A DNA stretch of 38,788 nt. It comes from Nitrospirota bacterium. Its GTDB lineage: Bacteria; Nitrospirota; Thermodesulfovibrionia; Thermodesulfovibrionales; JdFR-85. The notes beneath the pieces were generated by a model, which was not told the origin of the DNA, made no database searches, and saw nothing but the letters and a program-made list of their open reading frames with translations. The DNA lies in contig JAADGG010000001.1 of NCBI GenBank assembly GCA_013152485.1, positions 1 through 38,788 of the forward strand. The letters are read 5' to 3'. The position numbers and the translations under genes were made by a program. Positions 34,754 to 38,788 of the stretch are shown piece after piece (position 1 is the stretch's first letter; each line of letters starts with the position of its first letter).

Positions 34754-34963
34754 CTAACGCACACCCTTTACCTTGTAGCCTGCATCCTGTACCGCCTTCT
34801 CTATAGTGTTGCCATCGGTCTTTGAGTCATCGAAAACAACCCTCGCAGAACCCGTTGTCACGTCTGAAGAACTTACACCGTCAATCCCGTCTATCGCCTT
34901 CTTCACCCTCATTACACAGTGTTGACAAGTCATGCCTTCAATCTCAAGCGTTATCTCGGCCAT
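34754..34963 (-). CDS. Heavy-metal-associated (HMA) domain protein, CopZ-like copper chaperone
   Basis: 69 aa with GMTCQHCVMRVKKAIDGIDGV, the CxxC metal-binding loop of HMA proteins. Confidence 0.92.
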   Translation of the reverse strand: MAEITLEIEGMTCQHCVMRVKKAIDGIDGVSSSDVTTGSARVVFDDSKTDGNTIEKAVQDAGYKVKGVR

Positions 34964-35046: not shown

Positions 35047-36504
35047 TCATTTTTTTTCTTTCCTCTCGATCTCGTCGAGAAATTCCCTCAAAAGCCTCGC
35101 CCGGGACCTGTCCATGTTCACAAACTTGAAACCGTACAAATAGCCGTCATCCTCCCTCGAAAGCCATGCAACCGCGGCGGTTGCGGAAAAGTCCACCGTC
35201 TTCTGCCCGACCTGCAGCGAGATCACCACATCGGCCTTCTCCTTCAGCAGCAGGAACTCCTTCAGCCTGGCTGCGAAGCCGCAGGTGCCTATATTGATCA
35301 CCTCGCCCGAAAAGGTCTGCTCGCCGTCGATCCTCGAGCAGGTGAACGGCAGGTTCACACTGTAACGGTTCGTCCTCTTCAGGGACTTCAGGGCCTCCTT
35401 GAGCCTGATCATCACTATCACGATCTTCCACATCTTTCCGCCCACCCTCCTCCTCTTCCGTATGAACCTCAACCGTAAAATCAGGAGCCTTCTGATGAAG
35501 AACGAGAGAGTGAAGTACAGTATGAAATACGCAGTGAATATAAGGAACAGGCGGTAATCGGGTATCTCCAGGGTTACCCCTATGATCCCGATGGCGGCGA
35601 ACATGGAAGACACCATCAGAATGATCCTGACGGTCGTCCTCTTTCTGTACCCGTACTTCATGGTGATATGATGCAGGTGGTACTTGTCGGCCTTGAACGG
35701 GCTCCTGCCCCTCAACATCCTCTTGATCATGACGGTTATGGTATCAACTATTGGAACGGAGAGGACCAGGAGCGGAACCACCGGCGGAACCACGCCGTTA
35801 TCCTTCTGACTTATCGAGATGGAGAGGAAGACGAGCGAGAATCCGAGGGAGAGGCTGCCTGCATCTCCCATGAACAGTTTGGACGGAGGCCAGTTGTACT
35901 TGAGAAAACCGAGCACGACCCCTGCAAGTGCAACGCTCAACAGAACGAGCTCGGTCTGCCTGTTGATGTATGCAAGCACTGCGAATGCAACGAACGCAAT
36001 CAGCGAGATTCCGCCTGCAAGACCATCGAGACCGTCGATCATATTGATTGCATTGATGACTCCCACCGTAAAGAAGACCGTCAACGGAACGGCCAGGCTG
36101 CGACTGAGCTCTATCGGGCCGAACGCAAAGATGTCCCCGAAAGTCGTGACTATGGTGTCGCTGAAATATATCATGAAGATCGATGCGACAATCTGAGCAA
36201 CGAACTTCCACCGGTGATTCAGCTCCCTGAAATCATCGAGGAAACCGATAATGGCGAGCATGGCGATCCCTGCATAGAACCCCCTGAGGTTTGAAAAGGG
36301 CACGAACAGAAGACATGTTACGGAAAGGGCCATCATCATTCCCAAGCCGCCTACCAGAGGCCGCGGGTTGCTGTGCATCTTCCTCTGTCCGGGAAAGTCG
36401 AGCAACCCTATCTTCAGGGCGATGTTGGAAAGCCGGGGCAGAATGAGAACGGTTATTAGCAGCGAGGTGGAAAAAACAAGGAGTAACTTCAGTGTATATG
36501 CCAT
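35047..36504 (-). CDS. WecA/TagO/MraY-family polyprenyl-phosphate HexNAc-1-P transferase fused to a C-terminal PilZ-like domain (ORF extends to 36576)
   Basis: FLDDFRELNHRWKF, NAINMIDGLDGLAGGISL, GDAGSLSLGF, KADKYHLHH and multiple TM segments; C-terminal ~115 aa RYSVNLPFTC...GEVINIGTCGFAARL...DGYLYGFKFVNMDRSRARLLREFLDEIE resembles PilZ. Confidence 0.87.
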   Translation of the reverse strand: MAYTLKLLLVFSTSLLITVLILPRLSNIALKIGLLDFPGQRKMHSNPRPLVGGLGMMMALSVTCLLFVPFSNLRGFYAGIAMLAIIGFLDDFRELNHRWKFVAQIVASIFMIYFSDTIVTTFGDIFAFGPIELSRSLAVPLTVFFTVGVINAINMIDGLDGLAGGISLIAFVAFAVLAYINRQTELVLLSVALAGVVLGFLKYNWPPSKLFMGDAGSLSLGFSLVFLSISISQKDNGVVPPVVPLLVLSVPIVDTITVMIKRMLRGRSPFKADKYHLHHITMKYGYRKRTTVRIILMVSSMFAAIGIIGVTLEIPDYRLFLIFTAYFILYFTLSFFIRRLLILRLRFIRKRRRVGGKMWKIVIVMIRLKEALKSLKRTNRYSVNLPFTCSRIDGEQTFSGEVINIGTCGFAARLKEFLLLKEKADVVISLQVGQKTVDFSATAAVAWLSREDDGYLYGFKFVNMDRSRARLLREFLDEIERKEKK

Positions 36505-36807
36505 TACAGGGTTAATGGTCGTTCTTCTCCTAACGGGTTTACTCTCTGTCGACAAGAGCCTGCATACCGCAGGCAAGCAGGACCGCCGTGCTGCGAAACA
36601 TCAAGGCCCGGCTGTGTCGACATGAAGAATCACCAAGGTCTTTCTGCTGGTGCAACGAAAACGAATTCCCTCTTGATGCGCGATGTCAGCCTGCCTTACG
36701 GTTTCGAGATCATCAACGTATCAATATCTCTTATAATAACAGAACTTCACCTTATAATGGTAGGTTGCTTACAGGAAGGCGGGAAGCGGGCATCTCATCA
36801 CGGTGGT

Positions 36808-38559
36808 CTAAGCCCTGCTGATGAAAAAGTTCCCCATCACCAGCACGTCCATCTTTGTTTTCAGAAAGCAATGCAATGCCTCTTCAGGGTGACGGACGAT
36901 CGGTTCATCTTCATCAAACGACGTGTTGAGGACGAGCGGTACTCCGGTGATCTTTCTGAACTCCTCGATCAGCTGCCAATACAGGGGGTTGTCTTCGCGC
37001 TTAACGGTCTGCAGTCTCCCGGAGCCGTCCGCGTGAGTGAGCGCAGGAACTATATCCCGCATTTCGGGCTTGATTTTATACATCTTGAGCATGAACGGAT
37101 CCGGATAGTCCGTCTCGAAGTACTCGCCGGTGGTCTCGAGATGAATCGAGTGTGCAAATGCCTTGAAAGACTCCTGCCTGCTGACCTTTGCGCTCAGGAC
37201 GTCTTTCATGTCAGGCCTTCTCGGGTCACAGACGATGCTTCTGTTACCGAGGGCCTGAGGCCCCCATTCCATCCTGCCCTGAAACCAGCCCACGACGTTA
37301 CCGTCTGCAATCGACCTGGCCGTATCACGGCAGAGGTGGATCTCGTCTTCTACCTTTCTTATCCGGCAGTTCTCCTTCTCCAGAGCGGACGAATGGTTCT
37401 CAATGACCTGCTTTATCTTGTAATCACTGTACCCGGGTCCGAGGTACGGCTTCTCAAGCACGTAGGAGCGCGGCATGCCGAGCAGCTGATTCCACACGTA
37501 AAAAGCCGCACCGACGGCCCCTCCTGCGTCTCCTGCAGCAGGCTGTATATAGACCTCCCTGAAGGGAGTATTCTCGAATATCTTGCCGTTTGCTAGGCTG
37601 TTCATTGCACAACCGCCTGAGAGGACGAGGTTGGGACATCTCGTCTCCTTGTAGACCCTGTTGAGGATATGAAAGAAGACCTCCTCGTATCTCTTCTGGA
37701 GGGAAGCCGCTATATTCTTGTGCCTGTCGCTTATCTCCTCTCCGGGCTTACGCGCAGGTCCCAGCATGTCTTCGAGCTTCTTCGAGTAGAAAGCCCCCAT
37801 ACACGGTTCACCGTCGTGCCACCTCATGGGGATCCCCTGGGAGTGATGCGTAAAGAAGTCGAGATCGAGATTGAATTCCCCGTTCCTGTCCACCTTGAGG
37901 ATCTCCCTCATCTCCTTCATAAACTCTGGCTCACCATGTGCAGCCAGCTCCATAACCTTGTGTTCGTCGCCGTACCTGAGAAAGCCCAGGTACTGGGAAA
38001 CAGAGAGGTAGAACAGGCCCAAAGAGTGCGGGAAGAAGATCCTGTCGCCGACCTCGAGCATATTGTCCAGCCCTTTCCCCCACATGGTACCAACAAAGTC
38101 ACCGAAGAAATCAACCGACACCAGGGCGGCCTCCCTGAAGGGGGAGACGAAGAAAGAACTCGACAGGTGGGCCACGTGGTGTTCCACGTTGTGAACCTCG
38201 GCCCTTATCTTGTGACACAGAAAGCCGAGCTCTCTGTTCAGGACCTCTCCGAAATCCATGATCATGTTGGCACTCTTGAGGCGATGAGCGACCGACCGCA
38301 GGGATGGGCGCTTGGAAAAGGCGAAGAGTGCTTTCTTCACAAGGTTGGCGTTGGGTTTCCTGTTTACGGCGATATGATCGATATGCTTGAACTCTATGCC
38401 GGCCTCGTTAAGACAGTAGATTATCGCTTCAGATGGGAACCCCGCCCAGTGCTTTACCCTGGTAAACCGTTCCTCCTCTGCAGCAGCGACCAGCTCACCG
38501 TCAGCCACGATACAGGCTGAGGAATCGCCGTAATACGCGTTCAGACCGAGTATAAACAT
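36808..38559 (-). CDS. Carbamoyltransferase, NodU/CmcH/TobZ family
   Basis: ILGLNAYYGDSSACIVADGELVAAAEEERFTRVKH, HHVAHLSSSFFVSPF, LSGGCAMNSLANGKI, GRMEWGPQALGNRSIVCDPRRPDMKD. Confidence 0.94.
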   Translation of the reverse strand: MFILGLNAYYGDSSACIVADGELVAAAEEERFTRVKHWAGFPSEAIIYCLNEAGIEFKHIDHIAVNRKPNANLVKKALFAFSKRPSLRSVAHRLKSANMIMDFGEVLNRELGFLCHKIRAEVHNVEHHVAHLSSSFFVSPFREAALVSVDFFGDFVGTMWGKGLDNMLEVGDRIFFPHSLGLFYLSVSQYLGFLRYGDEHKVMELAAHGEPEFMKEMREILKVDRNGEFNLDLDFFTHHSQGIPMRWHDGEPCMGAFYSKKLEDMLGPARKPGEEISDRHKNIAASLQKRYEEVFFHILNRVYKETRCPNLVLSGGCAMNSLANGKIFENTPFREVYIQPAAGDAGGAVGAAFYVWNQLLGMPRSYVLEKPYLGPGYSDYKIKQVIENHSSALEKENCRIRKVEDEIHLCRDTARSIADGNVVGWFQGRMEWGPQALGNRSIVCDPRRPDMKDVLSAKVSRQESFKAFAHSIHLETTGEYFETDYPDPFMLKMYKIKPEMRDIVPALTHADGSGRLQTVKREDNPLYWQLIEEFRKITGVPLVLNTSFDEDEPIVRHPEEALHCFLKTKMDVLVMGNFFISRA

Positions 38560-38625
38560 TTCGCCCCCGAGAGTCAAGCTTGCGGACCGGGTTACAACAC
38601 AACATCAATGTCTCGGCAGTCTCTG

Positions 38626-38788
38626 TTACAACCTGAATGCGGCATATCGCTCACCCACGCCCCAGAGCTTGAACCTGACGATCCTCCTGTAGAGATAGAG
38701 GTAGCTGAGGGAGAAGAGCAGGAATATGCAGATCAGCGCTGGCGTGTTCGAGTGAAACGGAAAGGCCGCCGCGTTGAACACCGCCACA
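38626..38788 (-). CDS. C-terminal fragment of a membrane protein, probable O-antigen ligase/polymerase family (truncated by the window edge)
   Basis: Minus-strand translation VAVFNAAAFPFHSNTPALICIFLLFSLSYLYLYRRIVRFKLWGVGERYAAFRL*; the FPFHSNTPALI block resembles the C-terminus of O-antigen ligases. Confidence 0.55.
   Translation of the reverse strand, partial: VAVFNAAAFPFHSNTPALICIFLLFSLSYLYLYRRIVRFKLWGVGERYAAFRL

Follow-up and report, generated by a model that had tools for sequence, protein, structure and literature searches.

We analysed a window of 38,788 nucleotides, corresponding to positions 1 to 38,788 of contig JAADGG010000001.1 (assembly GCA_013152485.1) of a Nitrospirota bacterium. 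On its minus strand the window encodes a protein of 485 aa at 35047..36504, where the first-pass annotation had placed a WecA/TagO-type transferase fused to a PilZ-like domain; the open frame continues 5' to a TTG at 36576. Both parts of this fusion were recovered by Pfam profiles above their curated cut-offs. The polytopic phosphoglycosyltransferase profile Glycos_transf_4 (PF00953) matched residues 75-230 (35815..36282; E 3e-45, 154.5 bits, cut-off 27), and PilZ (PF07238) matched residues 378-477 at the C-terminus (35074..35373; E 9.2e-9, 36 bits, cut-off 22.5). The catalytic motifs of the transferase were intact, with DD at residues 90-91, DGLDG at 157-161, GDAGS at 213-217 and HLHH at 276-279. 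The latter (35668..35679) is located in the basic cytoplasmic loop that joins TM9 to TM10, and its histidines H276, H278 and H279 were invariant in the fusions. The best NCBIfam match of the protein was TIGR02380 (ECA_wecA), which scored below its cut-off (238.9 versus 326.05 bits), and the substrate sugar should therefore not be assumed to be GlcNAc.

Hydropathy of the ORF predicted 11 transmembrane segments with basic loops on alternate sides of the membrane, the last segment spanning residues 319-337, and one additional, spurious segment inside the PilZ domain. A basic linker (residues 338-375; 35380..35493) connects the membrane domain to the PilZ domain. Because the sequence following TM11 is strongly basic, with 18 K/R among the 64 residues 338-401, the positive-inside rule predicts a cytoplasmic PilZ tail. 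About 11 TM helices and a cytoplasmic C-terminus, both predictions here, are what the polytopic class requires, and the active site of the transferase is on the cytoplasmic face.

The assignment of the tail to the PilZ family was supported by several searches. The isolated tail matched PF07238 with E 4.4e-10 (40.2 bits), a genome-wide PF07238 search recovered the domain independently (C56:35074-35376, 39.8 bits), and the same profile matched all eight aligned fusion tails. Searching solved proteins with a profile of the tails gave YpfA/MotI (5vx6) as best match (E 3.6e-5) and also retrieved the C-terminus of BcsA (E 0.002). The PilZ fold is a six-stranded beta-barrel. An AF2 model of the tail built from three close sequences showed mainly strands and a C-terminal helix, at low confidence (pLDDT 54, pTM 0.51). 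The top three Foldseek matches of this low-confidence model were BcsA/CesA PilZ domains (prob 0.84-0.99, E 0.02-0.05), and the Alg44 PilZ domain (4rt1) was also among the matches. The model favours the PilZ assignment in a supportive manner only, and the match of the tail profile is firmer. A model of the full-length protein, resting on only two sequences (pLDDT 39), was left unused.

Directly 3' of the fused gene lies a gene for a heavy-metal-associated (HMA) protein of 69 aa with the motif MTCQHC (34754..34963, minus strand), and its 5' neighbour is a carbamoyltransferase of the NodU type (Carbam_trans_N/C; 36808..38577, minus strand), which is syntenic in the related genomes G004 and G006. 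The annotation had described the carbamoyltransferase and a probable O-antigen ligase as downstream neighbours; the former is upstream on the same strand, and the supposed ligase at the window end had to be discarded, as only the last 53 codons of a second transferase, again of the Glycos_transf_4 family, fall inside the window here (38626..38787, minus strand). Identity of this fragment with the neighbouring genes of G006 and G004 was 72-83%, and the intact G006 homologue (L080) matched PF00953. The second transferase is unfused and stands just 5' of the carbamoyltransferase in the window's genus (g1). The minus-strand order in g1 is second transferase, carbamoyltransferase, PilZ-fused transferase and HMA protein, followed by a convergent gene which we take, from its sequence, to be pheT. 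The HMA gene was syntenic in the three g1 genomes of the window, G004 and G006, and none was seen beside the fused gene in G001, G012 or G007. Two copies of the second transferase with 87% identity were found in G006 about 16 kb apart in a polysaccharide region (L080 16722-17759 and L081 12690-13700). Further 5', G006 encoded a DegT-type aminotransferase, a monotopic transferase of the Bac_transf type and, by eye, further glycosyltransferase-like genes, which fits a surface polysaccharide locus.

We screened related genomes for the same domain architecture and found it in four genera of f1, the family to which the window belongs, and in one genome of f5, a different family of the same order, with identities reaching down to 38-46%. 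Uninterrupted fusions were encoded by G004 (90% identity), G006 (83%), G001 (53%), G012 (48%) and G007 (46%). G003 contained a fragment comprising the C-terminal half of the fused protein (78% identity), and in the f5 genome G032 the N-terminal part of the fusion was missing near a contig end. A contig scan additionally retrieved two near relatives from Nitrospirae metagenome assemblies, DRKX01000069.1 (HyVt-450) and QIJG01000230.1 (SZUA-77). No further fusions came to light when 231 genomes of the class were searched with a profile and 396 genomes sampled from the phylum were searched by sequence. Among 137 plasmid records obtained by tblastn none reached at least 80% query coverage, and the best 10 of the 137 ended by residue 334. 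The nearest unfused homologues (overall range 53-62% identity) stop near residue 360, among them those of G045 (61%), G149 (56%), G017 (55%) and G166 (53%). As these close transferases end before the tail, the tail is probably dispensable for catalysis. We also considered that a separate PilZ gene had been joined to the transferase by a sequencing, assembly or gene-calling error, since the genomes are draft metagenome assemblies and the nearest homologues without the tail are about 360 aa long. This explanation was rejected and is, in our view, extremely improbable: at least seven assemblies from five genera carry the frame uninterrupted, the two domains are not separated by a stop, and the linker was conserved. 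The C-terminus is therefore neither an unrelated nor a frameshift-fused ORF.

Regarding the origin of the tail, we scored each held-out tail against a profile of the remaining tails. Tails of g1 reached 103-109 bits, and those of the genera g2, g5 and g3 reached 104, 120 and 71 bits, respectively. The highest-scoring non-fused PilZ domains reached 41-49 bits, in a competing set of about 30 PilZ domains of this order that were partly picked for similarity to the tails. These scores indicate that the tails of the four f1 genera share an origin. The held-out tail of G032 scored only marginally better than an unrelated PilZ domain (44.7 versus 39.7 bits), and its origin may be a separate one. In the enzyme tree the backbone was poorly resolved and fused and unfused rows were mixed, with four changes needed; a single fused clade was marginally disfavoured (p-AU 0.048). 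This mixing suggests tail losses or gene exchange, and since the tails themselves group together, a single gain of the tail with either of these is possible.

The ligand motifs of the tail differed between the window's genus and the other fusions. Canonical c-di-GMP-binding PilZ domains carry RxxxR and (D/N)xSxxG, and the window copy has neither. At the first site it has KRTNR (residues 376-380; 35365..35379), with R-to-K at the first position, and at the second NIGTCG (residues 404-409; 35278..35295), with S-to-G. The annotation had called the signature degenerate, which is true of g1 and not of the family as a whole. KRT(N/K/S)R and (N/D)IGTCG occurred only in g1, in four out of four sequences (DIGTCG in G003), whereas canonical or near-canonical motifs were found elsewhere: fusions of the other three family genera retained NxSxxG together with RxxxR or KxxxR (NISRNG and RKTRR in G001, NISKGG and RRQER in G012, NISRGG and KRQKR in G007). 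The outlier G032 from the other family retained RxxxR (RRDRR) together with ExSxxG (ELSMTG). These canonical or near-canonical motifs outside g1 suggest that the ancestral tail was probably a c-di-GMP receptor. On the most parsimonious reading of the motifs it would have carried RxxxR (or KxxxR) and NxSxxG, and the Ser-to-Gly exchange would be derived in g1. Glycine at the serine position was rare but present among the other PilZ domains examined, and a PilZ domain of the same genome (L006) showed NLGLNG beside an intact RFDVR. Two cysteines of the PilZ domain, C389 (35338-35340) and C408 (35281-35283), were invariant in g1; the latter lies inside the altered motif NIGTCG and was absent from the other fusions. 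Together with the metal-binding HMA neighbour, these cysteines could hint at a metal or redox input to the PilZ domain.

In structures of PilZ complexes, the ligand is contacted by the serine that the window copy lacks (PMC7288161). The PilZ protein of P. aeruginosa, which lacks the DxSxxG residues, does not bind (PMC12564702), and a YcgR homologue lost binding when alanine was put in place of both arginines of RxxxR (PMC11800159). Comparison of the window with G004 yielded dN/dS values of 0.11 in the PilZ domain and 0.03 in the enzyme; the values rest on this pair, as most other comparisons were saturated at synonymous sites and were set aside. By this measure the g1 PilZ domain is not decaying and is held under purifying selection.

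The genome of the window encoded eight GGDEF domains, all eight with GG[DE]EF, 14 HD_5 (HD-GYP type) matches and nine PilZ places (PF07238 search). No match to the EAL domain was found in this genome; HD-GYP-type domains alone appear to be responsible for c-di-GMP turnover. All seven tested genomes with the fusion had 8-12 GGDEF matches. This complement of GGDEF and HD_5 domains makes it very probable that the cell both synthesises and breaks down c-di-GMP. The idea of PilZ control over glycan initiation, as proposed in the annotation, gains support from this network as well as from the predicted cytoplasmic PilZ domain, the conserved fusion and the canonical motifs in relatives.

Fusion of PilZ to a polysaccharide enzyme is already known in kind, the closest example being BcsA. 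This is also a membrane glycan-forming enzyme with a cytoplasmic PilZ domain C-terminal to its last TM helix; the PilZ domain follows TM8, and the linker carries an RxxxR motif and makes contact with the gating loop (PMC12564702). The tail profile matched BcsA, and BcsA/CesA PilZ came first in the low-confidence fold search. BcsA is, however, a processive GT2 synthase, whereas the enzyme described here is a polytopic PF00953 transferase that acts on a lipid carrier in the first assembly step, and its motifs are degenerate in the window copy. The protein resembles WecA/TagO in its PF00953 domain, the four catalytic motifs, the 11 predicted TM helices and its best NCBIfam model, but differs by its score (239 versus 326 bits) and by the extra PilZ domain. 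YcgR and MotI (YpfA), the latter being the best solved match, share the PilZ family with the tail, but are soluble flagellar regulators without an enzyme domain. Alg44 also exerts PilZ control over polysaccharide synthesis (alginate), but as a separate co-polymerase protein in a synthase-dependent pathway. EpsZ of Myxococcus xanthus, a transferase that initiates a polysaccharide pathway, is controlled post-translationally; it is monotopic and belongs to another superfamily, and the signal is a phosphorylated response regulator (EpsW~P) rather than a fused PilZ domain (PMC12802240). The nearest regulatory precedent thus acts in trans on another transferase superfamily, and post-translational control of Wzx/Wzy-type pathways is described as incompletely understood (PMC12802240). 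A PilZ domain fused to a polytopic WecA-type initiating transferase was not found in the literature searched, which covered subscription journals little; this is weak evidence of novelty, and the combination may already stand in a domain-architecture database.

Taking these observations together, we somewhat favour the interpretation that the fused PilZ domain exerts a BcsA-like ligand control over the initiating transferase, with altered affinity or partner-dependence in g1. The gene product is an initiating polyprenyl-phosphate sugar-1-phosphate transferase followed by a basic linker and an authentic PilZ domain predicted to be cytoplasmic. We envisage that a ligand, which would be c-di-GMP in ancestral and canonical members, binds at the interface between linker and PilZ domain and shifts the seating of the tail on the cytoplasmic loops of the transferase, thereby altering access to the active site. 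The position of the tail might in this way set the share of undecaprenyl phosphate that is committed to this glycan pathway, much as the C-terminal PilZ domain of BcsA gates cellulose synthase. In g1, the fixed Ser-to-Gly and Arg-to-Lys exchanges within the ligand motifs make a weaker binding of c-di-GMP or a shift to a partner protein probable. More tentatively, and short of what we would call probable, c-di-GMP in this Nitrospirota lineage may allosterically control the carrier-consuming first step of polysaccharide synthesis through the fused domain, g1 having subsequently re-tuned the receptor by the Ser-to-Gly exchange and the invariant Cys408, perhaps to another signal.

The motif changes might also mean that the g1 PilZ domain no longer binds c-di-GMP and serves as a docking module for a hypothetical partner, for example a c-di-GMP-binding protein, a flippase or another pathway enzyme. 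The altered serine motif and the K at the start of RxxxR are shared by all four g1 sequences, yet the domain is under purifying selection, and a role in protein-protein interaction has already been proposed for PilZ proteins without intact motifs. Two proteins with incomplete motifs offer parallels, XCC6012, for which no reliable binding was obtained by ITC, and XAC1133, which works through FimX (PMC3131395). We nevertheless consider such a docking role unlikely, as R380, N404 (D in G003) and G409 are retained in g1, lysine is a conservative replacement that G007 combines with a canonical NISRGG, and the Ser-to-Gly exchange by itself may merely lower affinity. Even less probable appears a purely structural or localising appendage, anchored at the membrane surface or oligomerising via the basic linker without any ligand or partner signal. 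The strongly basic linker could indeed lie on the membrane and the tail evolves faster than the enzyme, but the ligand motifs are kept in several lineages at 21-37% tail identity, which would not be expected if the role were purely structural.

It is well known that c-di-GMP switches polysaccharide machines of the synthase type such as BcsA, Alg44 and PgaCD. The conserved sensor with its intact motifs in relatives suggests that the initiation of sugar chains itself might be switchable by c-di-GMP. Cell-wall synthesis draws on the same scarce undecaprenyl phosphate, and a sensor fused to an initiating transferase would therefore show how a cell decides on the share of this carrier that it commits. 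Canonical and degenerate tails on one and the same enzyme moreover form a natural series, which opens the question to tests with isolated domains.

Among the other transferases encountered were L056-L059 and many frames of about 550 aa, which belong to a large Nitrospirota Glycos_transf_4 group with a hydrophobic C-terminal extension of about 200 aa; in L058, the one that was scanned, the extension matched no other Pfam family. We also screened transferase frames of 480-600 aa elsewhere in the phylum for PilZ domains, and in 20 sampled loci no transferase frame matched our own PilZ profile. In G046 a transferase frame (L050 1420-3087) runs stop-free into a signal-peptide-like segment (MKRLTLMVLAVLAVV...), which may reflect either a sequencing artefact or a fusion of an unusual kind. 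In G156, from another family of the same order, a stand-alone tandem-PilZ gene (L094 2684-3361) lies on the same strand directly 3' of an extended Glycos_transf_4-type transferase (1129-2655), a second case in which PilZ accompanies this enzyme class, here without fusion.
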